A DNA stretch of 51,121 bases from Candidatus Dormiibacterota bacterium (lineage in GTDB: Bacteria > Vulcanimicrobiota > Vulcanimicrobiia > Vulcanimicrobiales > Vulcanimicrobiaceae), in the NCBI GenBank assembly GCA_035532035.1, contig DATKRS010000021.1:1-51121 (forward strand). Reading direction: 5' to 3'. The position numbers and the translations under genes were made by a program. The notes below the pieces were generated by a model, which searched no databases, had not been told where the DNA came from, and saw only the letters and a list, made by a program, of their open reading frames with translations. Of this stretch, positions 31,536 through 46,752 are shown piece after piece (position 1 is the stretch's first letter; each line of letters opens with the position of its first letter).

Positions 31536-32519
31536 ATGCACGGCATCGCACTCGCTCTCGCACTGACCGCACCGCAGCGGGCGAGCATCGATTCCATCGT
31601 GCGGTACGTCATGGGCGATCATCACGTCCTAGGCCTGTCGCTGGCCGTCGTACGCGACGGGCAGATCGTCTACGCGCACGGCTACGGCTTCGCCGATCGC
31701 AGGCGAACCGTACGGACGACGCCGCATACGGTCTTCGCTATCGCCTCGCTCGAAAAGTCGTTCGTCGCGGCAAGCGTCCTACGGCTCGCCGAACGCGGAC
31801 GCCTTTCCCTCGACGACACGCTCGCGACGTACGTTCCCTGGTATGCGGCCGCTCGCAACGTTACCGTCGCGGAGCTGCTGAAGCACACGAGCGGCATTCC
31901 AGATTACGCGCAGCTGCCCGATTTCGACCGAGGCGCGCGCCAGCCGGTCTCGCCGGAGTCGCTCGTACGTCGCGTCGCCTCGCTTCCGCTCGCGTTCGCG
32001 CCGGGAACGAGCACGCGCTATAGCAACACCGATTACGTTCTGCTCGGCATCATCGTGCAAGACGTGACGCACGTACCGCTGGCAGCGTGGCTGCGGCGCG
32101 ATCTCCTGGCGCCGCTTCGCCTCGACGAAACCGCGAGCTGGAATCCGTTCCTCGACGAGCCGAACCGCGCGCAAGGAAGCGTCGCCGCGGGATCGGCGTC
32201 GCTCGCCTTCGCAGCCGCCGGTTTGGAATCCAGCGCGCTCGACATGGCGCGCTGGATCGACGATCTCTTCGCGCTGCGCGTCGTCGACGCAGCGGATCTC
32301 GCGCGCATGTTCTCGGGCATGGGCTTCTTCAGCGGAAATATCGGTACGCTTCGCGGCGCTTGGCACAGCGGGTACGTCGAAGGATACTCGTCGTACGTCG
32401 CGATCGTTCCGTCACGGCGTTTGGGCGTGGTCCTGCTCTCCAACGCCGACGCGGTTGACCTCGGACCGCTCGCGCAGAGCGTCGTCGAGGACGCGCTTCG
32501 AGGGTCTGCCAAGGAGTGA
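31536..32519 (+). CDS. serine beta-lactamase/PBP-like hydrolase (family S12 type)
   Basis: The 327-residue protein has a short hydrophobic N terminus that may be a signal sequence (MHGIALALALTA). It carries all three catalytic motifs of class C beta-lactamases and related esterases or peptidases: Ser71-x-x-Lys74 (ASLEKS), Tyr162-x-Asn164 (RYSNTDY) and His277-x-Gly279 (WHSGYVEG). It is intact, unlike the homologue at 43499. The family includes D-amino peptidases and esterases, so antibiotic resistance should not be assumed. Its last four bases overlap the mannosidase start. Confidence 0.88.
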   Translation: MHGIALALALTAPQRASIDSIVRYVMGDHHVLGLSLAVVRDGQIVYAHGYGFADRRRTVRTTPHTVFAIASLEKSFVAASVLRLAERGRLSLDDTLATYVPWYAAARNVTVAELLKHTSGIPDYAQLPDFDRGARQPVSPESLVRRVASLPLAFAPGTSTRYSNTDYVLLGIIVQDVTHVPLAAWLRRDLLAPLRLDETASWNPFLDEPNRAQGSVAAGSASLAFAAAGLESSALDMARWIDDLFALRVVDAADLARMFSGMGFFSGNIGTLRGAWHSGYVEGYSSYVAIVPSRRLGVVLLSNADAVDLGPLAQSVVEDALRGSAKE

Positions 32520-40865: not shown

Positions 40866-42086
40866 ATGAAGGATCGTGCCCGCGATCTGATCGCGCTCGA
40901 AACGAAGTACGGCGCCCACAACTATCGCCCCCTCGACGTCGTCGTCGAGCGGGCCGAAGGCGTCTGGCTTTGGGACGTAAACGGCCGGCGCTATCTCGAT
41001 TGCGTGAGCGCGTACTCCGCGCTCAACCAAGGACACGCTCATCCGCGCATTCGCGCGACCCTGGTAGAGCAGTCGCAACGTCTATCGCTCTCGTCGCGCG
41101 TCGTGTACAACGACCGACTGCCGCTCTTCCTCGAGAAGCTCGCTGCCGTCACGGGATACGAAGCGGCGCTGCCGATGAACGCGGGCGTGGAGGCGGTCGA
41201 GACGGCGATGAAGCTCGCGCGGCGCTGGGGATACGAGGTCAAAGGCATTCCCTCGAACGCTGCGGAGATCGTCGTCTTTGCAAACAACTTTCACGGTCGC
41301 ACGATTGCCGCCATCTCGGCGAGCTCGACGGCGCAGTACCGCAACGATTTCGGTCCCTTCCTTCCCGGTTTCATCTTCGTGCCGTACGCCGACATCGCAG
41401 CGCTGGAGCGCGCGATCACGCCGCTGACATGCGCGGTGATGATGGAGCCTATTCAAGGCGAGGGCGGCGTCGTCGTTCCGCCCGACGGGTACCTGGCTGC
41501 GGCAGCGACACTCTGCCGCGAGCGCGACGTCCTCTTCGTGGCCGACGAGATCCAGACGGGGCTCGGACGAACGGGCGATCTCTTCGCGTGCGATCGCGAG
41601 CGCGTGCATCCGGACATTCTCATCTTGGGGAAGGCGCTCGGCGGCGGGTATTACCCGGTCTCCGCGGTGGTCGCAAGCCGCGCCCTCATGGACCTCTTCG
41701 GAGCAGGCGACCATGGCAGCACCTTCGGCGGCAATCCGCTCGCAGCCGCGGTCGCCTGCACTGCCCTCGACGTGATCGTCGAAGAACGACTCGCGGAACG
41801 CTCCAGACGCGCGGGCGATCGCCTTCTGGCCGGCCTCCGCGCCGTCACCTCCCCGCACGTACGCGACGTGCGTGGACGTGGTCTCCTGGTGGGGATCGAG
41901 CTCGATCGTCCGGCGCGTCTGCTCTCCGAGGCTCTTCTCGAGCGCGGGATCATCGCCAAAGACACGCATGAAAACGTCCTGCGGGTCGCGCCGCCGCTCG
42001 TTATCGACGACGAGAGTCTCGACTTTCTCGTCGACGGGCTCGGCGAAGCGATTCGCGGCCTCGAAGCCCGGGCCGTCTCCGGTTGA
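40866..42086 (+). CDS. rocD: ornithine--oxo-acid aminotransferase (class III, PLP)
   Basis: Transfers the delta-amino group of ornithine to 2-oxoglutarate. The 406-residue protein begins LIALETKYGAHNYRPLDVV, a hallmark of RocD, and shows PMNAGVEAVETAMKLARRW, FHGRTIAAISAS, EPIQGEGGV, ADEIQTGLGRTG and Lys256 (ILGKALGGG) for PLP. ATG 40866 was picked over 40839 and 40848 because it gives the family N terminus and fits the promoter spacing. Its stop codon overlaps the -35 box of the infC promoter. Confidence 0.92.
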   Translation: MKDRARDLIALETKYGAHNYRPLDVVVERAEGVWLWDVNGRRYLDCVSAYSALNQGHAHPRIRATLVEQSQRLSLSSRVVYNDRLPLFLEKLAAVTGYEAALPMNAGVEAVETAMKLARRWGYEVKGIPSNAAEIVVFANNFHGRTIAAISASSTAQYRNDFGPFLPGFIFVPYADIAALERAITPLTCAVMMEPIQGEGGVVVPPDGYLAAAATLCRERDVLFVADEIQTGLGRTGDLFACDRERVHPDILILGKALGGGYYPVSAVVASRALMDLFGAGDHGSTFGGNPLAAAVACTALDVIVEERLAERSRRAGDRLLAGLRAVTSPHVRDVRGRGLLVGIELDRPARLLSEALLERGIIAKDTHENVLRVAPPLVIDDESLDFLVDGLGEAIRGLEARAVSG

Positions 42087-42111
42087 CACCCCTTCAGGGG
42101 CCTGCTATGCT
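42083..42111 (+). promoter_or_regulatory. sigma70-type promoter of infC-rpmI-rplT
   Basis: TTGACA (42083-42088), a 17-base spacer and TATGCT (42106-42111) make the best consensus promoter in the window. The spacer contains CCCCTTCAGGGG, a small inverted repeat. Transcription would begin near 42118, leaving a leader of about 165 bases before infC. Confidence 0.85.
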
Positions 42112-42123
42112 CTCGGAGCCGAA

Positions 42124-42239
42124 GCAGCACCCTCCCCGTGGGGGCGCTCACCGGATGCCTGCGGGCGATCCGGTTCACGCGCGAGGAGCCGCCGGCCGGT
42201 TCCGCACGGTGGGGTTGCTGCGGCAGCGCCATTTTTTAT
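42124..42239 (+). promoter_or_regulatory. structured infC leader with attenuator-like end
   Basis: The leader ends in a GC-rich helix followed by a run of six T (42232-42237). GCTG/CAGC at 42217-42227 forms a local hairpin. GGCGCT at 42143-42148 can instead pair with AGCGCC at 42225-42230 just before the T run, and GCAGCA at 42124-42129 can pair with TGCTGC at 42216-42221. These mutually exclusive helices look like a terminator/antiterminator switch. Control of this operon by L20 binding to the leader is known in Firmicutes and E. coli; its use here is inference. Confidence 0.55.
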
Positions 42240-42282
42240 TGTACGGGAGGTGTCACATCACGATCGTCACGGGAGGAGCGCC

Positions 42283-42870
42283 ATAGCTCGACCGCTTCGC
42301 GTCAACGATCAGATCCGCATCCGAACGGTGCGCGTCATCGACGAGAACGGCGACCAGCTCGGCATCATGCCGATCGAGGACGCGCAGGCCCGCGCCCGCG
42401 CAGCCGGACTCGACCTGATCGAGATCTCGCCGAACGCCCAGCCGCCGGTCTGCAAGGTCGGCGATTACGGACGGCTCAAGTACGAGCAGTCGAAAAAGGA
42501 CAAGGACGCGCGCAAGAAGCAGCGGCATTTCGAGCTCAAGGAAGTAAAGCTCCGTCCGAAAATCGAGACGCACGATTACGAAACGAAAGCGCGAATGGCG
42601 GAGCGCCTGCTGCAAGACGGGAGCAAGATCAAAGTCACGATCATGTTCCGCGGCCGCGAGATCACGTACGCAGTATTCGGGCGACGTCTACTCGATCGCA
42701 TGGCAGAGGACATGCTGCCGCTTGCGATCGTCGAGCGCGAGCCGCGACTCGAAGGAAAGAACATGTTCATGATTTTGGCGCCGCGCTCGGCACCGACGGG
42801 CCCGCCGAAGTATTCGTTGCCCCCGAAGAAACCGGGGGCTCCAGCCGCAGAGCCGGATGGAAGCGCGTAG
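42283..42870 (+). CDS. infC: translation initiation factor IF-3, apparent ATA start
   Basis: IF-3 checks start-codon and initiator tRNA pairing on the 30S subunit. The 195-residue protein has the N domain (RPLRVNDQIRIRTVRVIDENG), the Lys-rich linker helix (YEQSKKDKDARKKQRHFELKE, split here at about residue 75-95) and the C domain with FRGREI. GGGAGGAG lies four bases before ATA 42283, and the family sequence starts right after it. No ATG, GTG or TTG lies at a suitable place; GTG 42250 is in frame but too close to its own GGGAG. Rare AUU/AUA/AUC starts are known in infC, where they allow self-control. Confidence 0.9.
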   Translation: MARPLRVNDQIRIRTVRVIDENGDQLGIMPIEDAQARARAAGLDLIEISPNAQPPVCKVGDYGRLKYEQSKKDKDARKKQRHFELKEVKLRPKIETHDYETKARMAERLLQDGSKIKVTIMFRGREITYAVFGRRLLDRMAEDMLPLAIVEREPRLEGKNMFMILAPRSAPTGPPKYSLPPKKPGAPAAEPDGSA

Positions 42871-42915
42871 GGGAGTTGACGGTGTGAAGCGCCGTCGTTA
42901 AGAAGGAGAGGACCA

Positions 42916-43122
42916 GTGCCGAAGATTCGAACGCACCGAGGAACCGCCAAGCGCGTCAAAGTGACGGCGAATGGAAAAGTGCTGCATCGCCATCAGTTCG
43001 ATGGCTGCGGTCACATCTTGAGCAAGAAGTCGCAGAAGCGCAAGCGCCATTTTCGTAAGGATCAACCGACGGCTCCGGGCGACATGCGCCGCATCCGTGC
43101 GATGATCCCGTACTTGGTGTAA
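42916..43122 (+). CDS. rpmI: 50S ribosomal protein L35
   Basis: Small basic ribosomal protein of 68 residues. It starts PKIRTHRGTAKRVKVTANGK, continues with HILSKKSQKRKRHFRK, and ends RIRAMIPYLV, all as expected for bL35. The start is GTG, with AAGGAGAGG upstream at good spacing. It lies 45 bases after infC and 12 before rplT in the standard order. Confidence 0.96.
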   Translation: MPKIRTHRGTAKRVKVTANGKVLHRHQFDGCGHILSKKSQKRKRHFRKDQPTAPGDMRRIRAMIPYLV

Positions 43123-43134
43123 GGAGGATTCGAC

Positions 43135-43494
43135 ATGGCACGCGTCAAGCGCGGCGTCGGCGGTATCAAGCACCGCCGGCGCGTGATGAAGCTGGTCAAG
43201 GGCTTTCGCGCGGCTCGCCGCCGCAACTACCGCGTCGCAAACGAGGCGCTGCTCAAATCGCTGGCATACGCGTTTCGCGACCGCCGCGTTCGCAAGCGGG
43301 ACTTTCGATCGCTCTGGATCAGCCGCATCAACGCGGCTGCGCGCCGCGAGGGTCTCTCGTATTCGCTGCTCATGCACGGCTTGAAGAAATCCGGCGTCAA
43401 CCTGAACCGCAAGGCTCTTGCCGATCTTGCGGTGAGCGACGCGAAGGCGTTCGGGACGTTGCTGAGCATGGCGAAACAGGCGGTCGGAAAGTAA
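43135..43494 (+). CDS. rplT: 50S ribosomal protein L20
   Basis: Assembly-initiating rRNA-binding protein of 119 residues, with MARVKRGVGGIKHRRRVMKL, the long basic helix, and SRINAAARREGLSYS in the globular domain. In other bacteria L20 represses its own operon by binding the leader, which makes the leader at 42124-42239 a candidate target. AAGGAGG precedes the ATG at ideal spacing. Confidence 0.97.
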   Translation: MARVKRGVGGIKHRRRVMKLVKGFRAARRRNYRVANEALLKSLAYAFRDRRVRKRDFRSLWISRINAAARREGLSYSLLMHGLKKSGVNLNRKALADLAVSDAKAFGTLLSMAKQAVGK

Positions 43495-43498
43495 TCTC

Positions 43499-44812
43499 TT
43501 GATCGCGATCCTGTCGCTCGCGGCGGTGATCGGCTTCACCCCCGCAACGGCGCACCGCATCGACGCGATCGTCGCCGCGGAGCTACGGGCTCACCGCGCT
43601 CCCGGCGTTGCCGTCGGCGTCGTCGAATCGGGGCGTTTGGTCTACGCGCGAGGCTTCGGAACCGCAAGCCTCTCCCGCCGCGTCGTCGTCTCTCCCGGCA
43701 CCCAGTTCGGCATTGGGCAGATCAGCGTGCAGTTCACGGCCGCAGCGATCCTCCTGCTCGCCCAGGACGGCAAGCTCAAACTCGACGACACGGTGACGCA
43801 GTATCTTCCCGAGGTCACCATCGCGCGATACGTCACGATTCGCGAGCTCCTCGATCAGACGTCGGGACTTCCGAACGTCACGAACTGGGCACATCTGCTG
43901 GCATCGGCAAACGCCGCACGTCCCATGGCGACGCCCGGCGCGTCCTACGCGCCCAATCCCCTGAACGCCATCCTCGCCGGAAAGATCGTCGAGCGCGTCG
44001 CCGGCGAGCCGCTCTCGGATTACGTGCAGCAGCACATCTTCGTTCCGCTCGTGATGGACGCGACGCTCTATGAAGGCGATACCGGTCTCTCCCCCAATCG
44101 CGCCGTCGGATACACGCGCGAGAACGGCCGGTTCGAGCGCGCCCGGCCGTGGAGCGCGACGCGTCTCGACGGCAACGCGGGCATCGTCAGCGACGTGTAC
44201 GATCTTGCAAAATGGGACATCGCGTTTCCGATTCTTTTGCGCGTCGATGCGGTGCGCGAGATGTTCACGCCGGGAATCGCCGGCTCGTACGAGCGGCGCG
44301 GCATGGGCTGGGCAATCGACCGTCGCAGCGGCAGGCGTTTCGTCTGGCAGAACGGCGAGATCCCCGGGTTTCATGCCATGAACGCGGTGCTGCCCGACGA
44401 GCACGTCGCGGTCATCGTGCTGACCAACGTGGATTCCATGCACGAGGCGGCCCTATTGCCGGAGAGCATCGCCGGGCGCATCCTCGACATCGTGGTTCCG
44501 CCGAGCAGGCAGCGTATCGAAAACGGCGTCGTGGAGCGCGCGCGCGAATGGCTCGCGCGCCTGGCGAGCGATCGCATCGATCGCACGCAGCTCACGTCAG
44601 GCTTCAGCGCATACCTGTCAGACGACGTCGTGCGCCGGGCGCAGATCGATCGGCTTGGCCGCGTCGAATCGCTGGTTCCCATCTCGAGCGCTCCGGCACA
44701 GCACGGTACGACGACGTACGAGTTCTTGGTACGCTTCGCAAACGGCGAGCGCCACTATCGCCTGACGCTCACCCCCGACGGGAAGATCGACTTCATCGCG
44801 TTTACGCCGTAG
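43499..44812 (+). CDS. beta-lactamase-fold protein that has lost its active site
   Basis: The 437-residue protein aligns along its first 330 residues with S12 beta-lactamase-like hydrolases (PGVAVGVVESGRLVYARGFG, FTAAAILLLAQDGKLKLDD, LLDQTSGLPN, GMGWAID). Each catalytic motif is altered: SxxK reads Gln74-Ile-Ser-Val77, YxN reads Tyr150-Ala-Pro152, and HxG reads Gln284-Asn-Gly286. A hydrophobic N terminus suggests export. A C-terminal domain of about 100 residues follows. The TTG start is 4 bases after rplT, so it is probably transcribed with it. The reading frame is otherwise well kept, so it may act as a binding protein and not an enzyme. Confidence 0.82.
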   Translation: MIAILSLAAVIGFTPATAHRIDAIVAAELRAHRAPGVAVGVVESGRLVYARGFGTASLSRRVVVSPGTQFGIGQISVQFTAAAILLLAQDGKLKLDDTVTQYLPEVTIARYVTIRELLDQTSGLPNVTNWAHLLASANAARPMATPGASYAPNPLNAILAGKIVERVAGEPLSDYVQQHIFVPLVMDATLYEGDTGLSPNRAVGYTRENGRFERARPWSATRLDGNAGIVSDVYDLAKWDIAFPILLRVDAVREMFTPGIAGSYERRGMGWAIDRRSGRRFVWQNGEIPGFHAMNAVLPDEHVAVIVLTNVDSMHEAALLPESIAGRILDIVVPPSRQRIENGVVERAREWLARLASDRIDRTQLTSGFSAYLSDDVVRRAQIDRLGRVESLVPISSAPAQHGTTTYEFLVRFANGERHYRLTLTPDGKIDFIAFTP

Positions 44813-44860
44813 GGCAACGCGCCCAAAGAGATATGCCACCCTTCGTTCTCGAGACGTTCG

Positions 44861-45142
44861 TTAGATGTCGCTTTCCGCGATGCGGCGGCCGGTGGCTTCG
44901 GTGACTTTCCCGAGCATCGCGACGGCTTCCGCAGGCGATGCATTGCTGAACATGTACCGCAGCCGTTCGTCGGCGTCTTCGACGATGAGCACCGCTCTGC
45001 GGCCCGTGCGAACCGCGTCGATGAGGGAGGCGAGATACGCCTCGTCTTCTGCCGCGAGAACCGAGCGGTCGCTCTTCGCGACCGGGCGCGTGCCGTTCAG
45101 GATACGCTTGAGAACGGCGTCGATGTCACCCGGGATTTCCAC
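44861..45142 (-). CDS. hypothetical 93-residue protein
   Basis: No family is recognised. The product (starting EIPGDIDAVLKRILNG) has a middle strand-like segment RRAVLIVEDADERLRY and a C-terminal helical part FSNASPAEAVAMLGKVTEATG. It has no membrane helix, Cys or clear catalytic motif. GTG 45142 with GGAGGA about ten bases upstream was chosen; a longer ATG start at 45217 would overlap the Nudix gene. It follows the Nudix gene on the same strand, 37 bases away, and converges on the dead beta-lactamase gene. Confidence 0.55.
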   Translation of the reverse strand: MEIPGDIDAVLKRILNGTRPVAKSDRSVLAAEDEAYLASLIDAVRTGRRAVLIVEDADERLRYMFSNASPAEAVAMLGKVTEATGRRIAESDI

Positions 45143-45179
45143 GATTTCTCTTCCTCCGGTTGCACCCCGGTGGGTGCGG

Positions 45180-45749
45180 TCAATCTCTTCTATCGACCGT
45201 TCCACAGCCGAGTTCACCCTCTCCGCACGTCATCCACTGCAAAGCTAGCAGAGTCTTTACATCGGCGATATCTCCAGCCGCCAGGAGATCGCGCGCTCGT
45301 TCGAGCGTAAAGCGGCCTACCTCGATGCGCTCGTCGTCGTCGAGCGATTGCGTTCCCGAGCGCAGATCCTCCGCAACGAAGAAATACATGATCTCGTCGC
45401 AGAAGCCGGGCGTCATGAAGACCGTGCAGAGCGGGCGTATACGCCCCGCGCGATAGCCCGTCTCCTCGGCGAGCTCGCGCAATGCGCCGTCGATCGGCTC
45501 CTCTGCGCCGTCGGCCGTGCCCGCCGGAATCTCCCAGAGAAAACGTCGCACCGGGTGACGGTACTGCCGCACCAGCACGATTTCGCCCGGCGCGGAAAGC
45601 GCGATGATGCCGAACGAACCTGCATGCTCGACGACGTCGCAGCGGTGCGCGCTCGCGTCGTCGTAGCGCAGCTCGTCGATCCGCACGCGAAAGACGGGCC
45701 CCGAGAAAGCGATCTGCGACGACAGGGTCTGCGGAAGGTCTTGCGCCAT
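45180..45749 (-). CDS. Nudix hydrolase, ADP-ribose pyrophosphatase type
   Basis: The 189-residue protein has a complete Nudix box, starting at Gly77 (GTADGAEEPIDGALRELAEE, then TGY), with the metal-binding Glu cluster. The upstream VRQYRHPVRRFLWEIPAG is the hallmark of ADP-ribose/NDP-sugar pyrophosphatases, which form domain-swapped dimers. GAGGA lies four bases before the ATG at 45749, preferred over an in-frame codon 30 bases upstream. It likely removes ADP-ribose or a related nucleotide sugar. Confidence 0.9.
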   Translation of the reverse strand: MAQDLPQTLSSQIAFSGPVFRVRIDELRYDDASAHRCDVVEHAGSFGIIALSAPGEIVLVRQYRHPVRRFLWEIPAGTADGAEEPIDGALRELAEETGYRAGRIRPLCTVFMTPGFCDEIMYFFVAEDLRSGTQSLDDDERIEVGRFTLERARDLLAAGDIADVKTLLALQWMTCGEGELGCGTVDRRD

Positions 45750-45763
45750 GTTATCCTCATGCG

Positions 45764-45976
45764 GTGCGACAGCAGTCAATCCTCGGGGAGCTGGGATGGC
45801 TCGGCTACTTCTTGGTCCTTCTCGTGATCGCGGTCTACGGCGCGAACCTCGTCGCCAATGCCCTCTTCCCGCGCCACTTCAACGATAAGATCGCTGACAC
45901 GCTTGCCGCCATCTTCGCCGCGCTCGTCTTCATCGCAACGCGCGCCTACGCGGCGGCCCGCAGCCGCGCGCGATGA
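45764..45976 (+). CDS. small two-helix membrane protein
   Basis: This 70-residue product has hydrophobic segments at about 12-34 (LGYFLVLLVIAVYGANLVANALF) and 46-62 (TLAAIFAALVFIATRAY) and a basic C terminus. No family is recognised. The GTG start has no ribosome-binding site. Its ATGA overlap with the downstream RNA methylase gene supports it being real. Divergent from the Nudix gene across 14 bases. Confidence 0.65.
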   Translation: MRQQSILGELGWLGYFLVLLVIAVYGANLVANALFPRHFNDKIADTLAAIFAALVFIATRAYAAARSRAR

Positions 45977-46752
45977 CGATGCCGCCGCGGCTCGGAGAGC
46001 GCGCGCCACGCCTCGCCGCTGCGCGTTCGCTCCTCTCCCCCAAGGGGCGCGCCGGCGCACGCCATTTCCTCTTTGAGGGTCCGACGCTGCTACGAGAGGC
46101 GCTGCGCAGCGGCATCGCGATCGACGAGATCTACGTCACCCCCGCCGCGTACGACGCGACGCCGCTCCTCCAGGAGGCGGAGCGTTCGGGCGTTCGCCTC
46201 TGGTCGGTCAGCGAGCGCGCCGCAGGGCGCCTCTCGGACGTCGAGTCGCCGACCGGCATCGTCGTTCTCGCGCGCCGGGCGCCCGGGACCCTGCGAGCCA
46301 TTCTCGATGCCGCCGGCACGGTGCTGCTGCTCGCCGACCTCGCCGATCCCGGCAATGCCGGCAGCCTCCTGCGAGCGGCCGAGGCATTCGGAGCGACCGG
46401 CGTCGTGTTCGGCCGCCGCGGCGTCGATCCGTACCATCCTAAGGTGGTCCGGGCAGCGGCCGGGGCGCTATTTCGCGTCCCCTTCGCCGTTGCGGGCCCT
46501 GACGACGTCGCAAAGGCCATAGGTTCGCTCCCGGTACTCGGCCTCACGGCCGAGGGCGCTCTGCCGGTCTGGGAGTTGCCGGTCGCTCCGAGGGTGCTCG
46601 TCGTGGGTCAGGAGCGCCGGGGGCTCGGGGCCTGGGCCGAGCTCTGCACGGGCAGCGTGCGGATTCCCATGGAGGGGCGTGCCGAGAGCCTCAACGCCGC
46701 CGTGGCGGGCTCGATCGCGCTCTACGAAGCGAGCCGACGCCCCCTCCGCTGA
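45973..46752 (+). CDS. TrmH/SpoU-family RNA 2'-O-methyltransferase
   Basis: SAM-dependent knotted methyltransferase acting on rRNA or tRNA. The 259-residue protein has an N-terminal RNA-binding (L30e-like) domain and the SPOUT core: LADLADPGNAGSLLRAAEAFG, VVRAAAGALFRVP, VVGQERRGL and RIPMEGRAESLNAAVAGSIALYE, the last forming the trefoil knot and SAM site. Genes of this type often stand just before pheST in Gram-positive lineages. Target nucleotide not determined. Confidence 0.92.
   Translation: MTMPPRLGERAPRLAAARSLLSPKGRAGARHFLFEGPTLLREALRSGIAIDEIYVTPAAYDATPLLQEAERSGVRLWSVSERAAGRLSDVESPTGIVVLARRAPGTLRAILDAAGTVLLLADLADPGNAGSLLRAAEAFGATGVVFGRRGVDPYHPKVVRAAAGALFRVPFAVAGPDDVAKAIGSLPVLGLTAEGALPVWELPVAPRVLVVGQERRGLGAWAELCTGSVRIPMEGRAESLNAAVAGSIALYEASRRPLR

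Follow-up and report, generated by a model that had tools for sequence, protein, structure and literature searches.

The open reading frame at 43499-44812 on the forward strand of the window (the whole stretch of DNA that was analysed, 51,121 nucleotides) starts with TTG and encodes a product of 437 aa, here named P. The genome is 2.25 Mb in 38 contigs and belongs to Eremiobacterota. Upstream of P lie three genes that we take to be infC, rpmI and rplT; these names, as well as pheS and pheT below, are presumed from general knowledge and from the conserved gene order. The features of the locus are as follows.

42083..42111, forward strand: sigma-70-like promoter TTGACA-N17-TATGCT ahead of infC, a consensus match only (10/12)
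42286..42870, forward strand: infC, first gene of a putative operon, assigned by sequence and place
42916..43122, forward strand: rpmI, assigned by sequence and place
43135..43494, forward strand: rplT, 4 nt upstream of P
43499..44812, forward strand: P, predicted S12/PF00144-fold pseudoenzyme, 437 aa, TTG start
44861..45217, reverse strand: orf118, the next gene downstream of P
45180..45779, reverse strand: NUDIX hydrolase, the conserved downstream flank

The initial annotation placed the TTG start 4 bases from rplT, and this is correct: rplT ends at 43494 and 4 nt (tctc) lie between its stop codon and the start of P. The start itself is supported by the genus mates, which begin with ATG, GTG or TTG at the same aligned position, 0-20 nt past rplT; this gap was found in all 6 genomes of the window's genus that have both genes in the DNA examined. 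Judging from the 4 nt gap, the absence of a terminator-like site between rplT and P in the window and the promoter-like site before infC, which was the only such site within 42000-46000, P is probably made from the infC-rpmI-rplT transcript in the window. Expression with ribosomal proteins, as was proposed for P at the outset, is likely in the window's genus on account of the 0-20 nt gap and the lack of a terminator-like site, but it is not general, as many relatives have an ECF sigma/anti-sigma pair between rplT and P. A family-wide rplT-P operon was considered and rejected, the tight arrangement being that of the window's genus while elsewhere the gap is wider or genes intervene. In one g5 group, an opposite-strand ORF lies between rplT and P. 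No RNA families were found near the P locus. The orf118 gene has no Pfam match, yet it follows P at 58-90% identity in nearly every locus examined.

S12-like enzymes need Ser and Lys for acylation. The PF00144 profile matched P over residues 22-316 with an E value of 9e-52 and 176.7 bits, above the curated cut-off of 27, and all of the 32 orthologs scanned also match. The three catalytic motifs, whose names we take from general knowledge, are degenerate in P at these aligned places.

43718..43729, forward strand: degenerate motif 1, QISV for SxxK (residues 74-77), by alignment
43952..43960, forward strand: degenerate motif 2, PNP for YxN (residues 152-154), by alignment
44348..44356, forward strand: degenerate motif 3, QNG for HxG (residues 284-286; His lost, Gly kept), by alignment

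None of the signatures of a catalytic S12 hydrolase or class C beta-lactamase (SxxK, YxN, HxG/KTG) was found in P, and the profile match and the aligned columns bear out the earlier description of a PF00144/beta-lactamase fold without SxxK, YxN and the His of HxG. The letters QISV and QNG had been read correctly, but YAP (residues 150-152) is two residues off; the real column is PNP, which aligns without gaps to the intact orthologs and paralogs (YNN, YSN). The conclusion is left intact, since Tyr and Asn are lost in PNP all the same. A search along the whole chain of P for S-x-x-K found none, so a shifted alignment that conceals a real SxxK elsewhere, which was the objection foreseen by the initial annotation, is ruled out. 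The gene at 31536 in the window, said to retain all three motifs, does so and reads SLEK, YSN and HSG. Also, SxxK is kept in all 6 other PF00144 proteins of this genome, P alone of the 7 being without it, and in each of the 26 non-orthologs among 30 PF00144 proteins fetched from 8 relatives (out of 61 matches; the other 4 are P orthologs). Caution is advisable here, in that PF00144 matches in such genomes should not be taken as beta-lactamases or carboxypeptidases unless the motifs are checked.

The AlphaFold model of P is confident (pLDDT 88.7, pTM 0.84) and has the S12 fold, and so is that of an intact ortholog, with pLDDT 91.1 and pTM 0.85. In VIA-align comparisons P matched Pab87 with Z 40.7 (rmsd 3.9, 349 aligned), FLP with Z 38.5 (rmsd 2.4, 311 aligned) and IS11 with Z 38.2 (rmsd 3.3, 354 aligned). 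The model divides P into an S12 domain and a C-terminal domain.

44516..44809, forward strand: C-terminal domain, about residues 340-437, helices and a beta-sheet, from the model

A Pfam scan of this domain gave nothing over the cut-off, DUF3887 appearing at E 0.12 in 1 of the 32 orthologs. Stand-alone relatives of the domain were also observed as small proteins without an S12 domain, probably exported, for example at L007:1465-1902 (reverse strand) and, in further genomes of the genus, as matches to residues 340-437 of P. Export of P, which had been claimed earlier, is plausible. By crude hydropathy only, the N-terminus has a hydrophobic core with 'ATA' before the mature part, and charged n-regions are seen in several other genera; but the signal is weak in the window's genus, as no Lys/Arg is present ahead of the core in its 6 complete sequences.

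Orthologs of P were found in 38 of the 99 genomes of the GTDB family and in 12 of its 38 genera. Their identity to P is 47-72% (92% for G004, which is an end fragment), and the next best matches have 36-37%. These matches are called orthologs because their identity is well above the next best and they occupy the same genomic place, the order after P in nearly all loci examined being orf118, NUDIX, a small orf, SpoU methylase, pheS and pheT. Seven neighbouring genes gave a species tree whose branching is in broad agreement with that of P. P dates far back in this part of the family, and it was lost in several genera and, inside genus g5, in G018. Intact relatives also occur in the sister family f2, where the DNA examined shows no rplT or sigma genes beside them. 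The relatives are mostly draft or metagenome assemblies, and a single odd residue (e.g. the Ala of L053) could be an error. Fragments L014 and L071 were excluded from all trees; L013, L052, L066, L069 and L070 from alignment A1; and L013 from the conservation count. For the catalytic set, 37 orthologs were long enough to judge.

Directly upstream of P in 14 of these 37, between rplT and P, are genes for an ECF sigma factor and a zinc-finger anti-sigma factor (genera g2, g7, g8, g14, g19, g25, g32 and one of two in g35). Examples of the pair between rplT and P are given here.

L178:5711-6906
L173:5167-6407
L182:6401-7665, reverse strand
L107:3632-4898

The sigma gene matches Sigma70_r2 and r4_2 of Pfam and the anti-sigma gene matches zf-HC2; the anti-sigma factor carries an invariant Hx3Cx2C, its C-terminal part is conserved, and by eye it contains a hydrophobic stretch. 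In several loci the sigma and anti-sigma genes share 4 nt; P begins within tens of bases of the anti-sigma gene in most loci and overlaps it by 4 nt in L182, and a DUF4142 gene is often present ahead of the pair. The adjacent pair is absent from the DNA examined in the other 23 orthologs, among which L013 ends at a contig edge. At E<=1e-10 no anti-sigma match was found in any of the 8 genomes of the window's genus, 7 of which keep a full or near-full P. A relocated pair serving P in this genus was considered and rejected, as the search at E<=1e-10 gave no candidate in any of the 8 genomes. The window gene, having no pair next to it, is best read as a descendant of the sigma/anti-sigma cassette and not a member of it. 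Two genera, g10 and g20, have the pair at the rplT locus without P.

L188:3396-4615, pair without P
L189:3474-4639, pair without P

Several other P-less genera go from rplT straight to orf118 or NUDIX, and in g5 a related pair (anti-sigma >250 bits) is present elsewhere, without P, in 9 of 18 genomes. Several P genes of g5 have a TATAAT-like box just before the start. In L041, L045, L049, L055 and L100 a TATATAAT-like box ends 3-12 nt before the P start codon, and this short distance suggests leaderless P transcripts in genus g5.

A history in the cassette suggests envelope-stress signalling, with P as co-regulator or as output. It is quite possible that P is plain output of the ECF regulon, an envelope protein that was co-transcribed with its regulators, was later freed from them and binds a cell-wall or envelope component. 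P is the last gene of the cassette, and it is retained under other promoters (the TATAAT-like box in several g5, the rplT operon in g1); such a reading refines the explanation that we prefer, a pseudoenzyme acting by binding, and does not oppose it. More doubtful is that P, through its pseudo-active domain or its C-terminal domain, contacts the extracytoplasmic portion of the ECF anti-sigma factor and controls whether this factor is cleaved or released, as a non-catalytic co-regulator and counterpart of PbpP. The third place of P in the cassette, overlapping or close to the anti-sigma gene in 14 of 37 orthologs, and the hydrophobic stretch (by eye) and conserved C-terminal part of the anti-sigma speak for it, as does the precedent of PbpP, whose Ser-to-Ala form activates sigma-P when overexpressed according to excerpts of PMC8092216. 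Yet the 23 of 37 orthologs without an adjoining pair (L013 ending at a contig edge), the window's genus with no anti-sigma match at E<=1e-10 in 8 genomes and a full or near-full P in 7, and the loci of g10 and g20 with the pair but without P stand against it. As P persists in genomes without a close anti-sigma relative, the cassette alone does not give the role of P, and the survival of P in lineages without the pair speaks for an independent role. Extending the co-regulator reading, P would represent a class of beta-lactamase-fold receptors that control ECF anti-sigma factors independently of catalysis, which we consider unlikely. An S12 hydrolase would have been recruited to the cassette, its active site would have decayed repeatedly, only the binding face mattering, and P in the window's lineage would have outlived its own sigma factor and moved under the ribosomal protein operon.

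On examining the catalytic positions, we found the complete set of Ser, Lys, Tyr, Asn, His and Gly (SKYNHG) in only 4 of the 37 orthologs (L035, L040, L064, L065), the remaining 33 being without it. Tyr and His are kept with Ser gone in 3 cases (L042, L043, L053), and in 30 cases Ser, Tyr and His are all missing, with Lys also gone in all of these except L046. Ser is therefore replaced in 33 of 37 orthologs, and the acylatable Ser of a PbpP-type co-sensor is absent from P, which has Gln. The residue that stands in for Ser depends on the lineage: it is Gln in all 7 orthologs from the window's genus, Gly in most of g5, Ala in g7, and Gln or Glu in g32. The QxxV signature by which the initial annotation defined a group thus holds for its Gln, which is fixed in the window's genus (7/7), but the Val belongs to the window protein alone.

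In trees rooted on intact paralogs and intact members of the sister family, the intact and dead orthologs are intermixed. Placing all dead orthologs in one clade costs 40-43 log units, with p-AU of 0.005 and of 0.002, the latter from a second tree in which 8 of the 16 outgroup rows were left out. A single old loss of catalysis is rejected by these AU tests, although the choice of the group to test was made with the first tree already in view. Provided that no ortholog regained the full set, four losses are required on the P tree, namely in g23, in g25, in g32 and in the rest (g1, g7, g8, g14, g35, g5). The fourth could stand for several, since the species tree joins g7 to g2, g25 and g32; in that tree, on the other hand, g25 and g32 could share one loss. 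On removing the motif columns the deep branches of the P tree are weak, and the 27 most decayed orthologs are spread with weak support. An AU test of one clade for these 27, which would mean a single shared loss, gives p-AU 0.586. As far as the sequences tell, catalysis was probably lost four times or more. As to whether the QxxV group is an old clade, the non-catalytic state is old in part, but this state probably arose several times. A single loss followed in the intact orthologs by a return of catalysis, whether regained or brought back through gene conversion with an active paralog, is quite improbable: plain parsimony counts 3 changes if gain and loss cost equal, but up to six specific residues at three separate places would have to return together, and in the P tree the intact rows take up roughly the positions that the species tree gives to their genera.

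NG86 dN/dS is 0.057-0.229 over 12 pairs of dead orthologs, 0.129 and 0.248 in two intact pairs, and 0.135 in one pair that includes a fragment of unknown catalytic state. Among the 27 most decayed orthologs, the columns of the catalytic Ser, Lys, Tyr and His rank at the 77th, 91st, 90th and 89th percentile of entropy, respectively, though they do not vary at all in 12 of 12 paralogs. Eight columns (74, 76, 77, 152, 226, 227, 231, 284) reach 95% conservation or more in the 16 outgroup rows but stay under 60% in the 32 non-catalytic orthologs compared; Ser, Lys, Tyr and His of the active site account for four of them. A further set, which includes S173, D174, Q178, G193, G196, K238, P244, R248, D250, R253 and N342, is conserved to 95% or more among the dead orthologs and rare in the outgroup, and part of it falls in a single segment.

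44201..44257, forward strand: segment DLAKWDIAFPILLRVDAVR, residues 235-253, with ortholog-specific K238, P244, R248, D250 and R253, from the conservation count

In the alignment many of these ortholog-specific residues are already present in the intact orthologs of g2, and fewer in L064 and L065; the set therefore seems to be older than the loss of catalysis, at least for some of the orthologs. In sequence and model, P thus keeps the fold, has lost the catalytic residues and is under purifying selection, as a pseudoenzyme would. P is very probably dead as an S12 enzyme and under selection, and the view of it as non-enzymatic is well supported, with Ser, Lys, Tyr and His lost, those columns varying freely and the rest under purifying selection. 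That P may catalyse something through other residues is very improbable: dead orthologs do retain fold and scaffold, with about 59% pairwise identity across the S12 domain, and DltE has altered motifs 2 and 3, though with SxxK and Tyr kept (excerpts of PMC10241514), but no replacement nucleophile is fixed at the catalytic columns, and most orthologs have none of nucleophile, base, Tyr and His, with differences at these positions even between close relatives. A decaying gene on its way to loss is hardly conceivable, for although P is cleanly missing in G018 and other family genomes, the ortholog matches contain no internal stop codon, the ortholog-specific residues are conserved, and dN/dS of 0.06-0.23 between dead pairs also led us to reject P as a pseudogene.

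The account that we prefer, and hold as a whole to be reasonably likely, is that P is an exported two-domain S12 pseudoenzyme acting by binding, of cassette descent, with catalysis repeatedly lost and the gene now on the rplT transcript. The ancestor of the Eremiobacterota lineage would have had an active S12 hydrolase as the third gene of a sigma/anti-sigma/P cassette in the stretch from rplT to NUDIX. Catalysis would have become dispensable and been lost about four times or more, and the ortholog-specific residues outside the catalytic motifs, together with the C-terminal domain, would have stayed conserved. The window's genus would have lost the sigma/anti-sigma pair, leaving P probably on the infC-rpmI-rplT transcript. 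P would work by binding, to what we infer to be an envelope ligand or a protein partner, and with no acyl transfer. The safest statement is that P is probably a conserved pseudoenzyme which acts by binding. The orthologs at one syntenic place, intact and dead (probably through independent losses), form a natural series for the S12 fold beyond catalysis.

In the open-access literature we found no description of a non-catalytic S12 third gene in an ECF cassette, nor of P; the accessible portions of PMC7406223 and PMC8103513 mention, for the terms searched, neither Eremiobacterota nor penicillin-binding partners. P shares its domain, fold and motif spacing with the PF00144/MEROPS S12 hydrolases (class C beta-lactamases, R61 DD-peptidase, FLP, LACTB), but P has other side chains at the catalytic positions of SxxK and YxN and instead of the His in HxG, and it also has extra conserved residues elsewhere. 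Pab87 (2qmi) and the IS11 esterase (7spn) have, like P, an S12 domain followed by a C-terminal beta domain, and they rank with the best structural matches of P (Z 40.7 and 38.2), whereas in the alignments both have Ser where P has Gln74 and P is without SxxK. According to excerpts of PMC10241514, DltE of Lactiplantibacillus plantarum has an S12-like fold with motifs 2 and 3 altered, as in P (VIA Z 36.3-36.7), but it keeps Ser128, Lys131 and Tyr213, of which P has none. The cassettes of ECF sigma and class I zinc-finger anti-sigma factors correspond to what lies just upstream of P in its relatives, Sigma70_r2/r4_2 and zf-HC2 (Hx3Cx2C), but the pair is absent from the window itself. In the excerpted text of PMC8092216, PbpP of Bacillus thuringiensis is a penicillin-binding protein needed for sigma-P activation, its sensing step is acylation by beta-lactams at S301, and PbpP or its Ser-to-Ala form, when overexpressed, activates sigma-P without beta-lactam. 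Going by that text, this sigma-P/RsiP co-sensor would resemble P in being a PBP-type protein that acts outside the cytoplasm and is linked to a pair of ECF sigma and anti-sigma factors, but most P orthologs are without that Ser, and the tie of P to sigma is one of gene order only. As described there, PbpP is an example of an ECF sigma factor being controlled by a penicillin-binding protein; in a version lacking the Ser, signalling would be separated from acylation.
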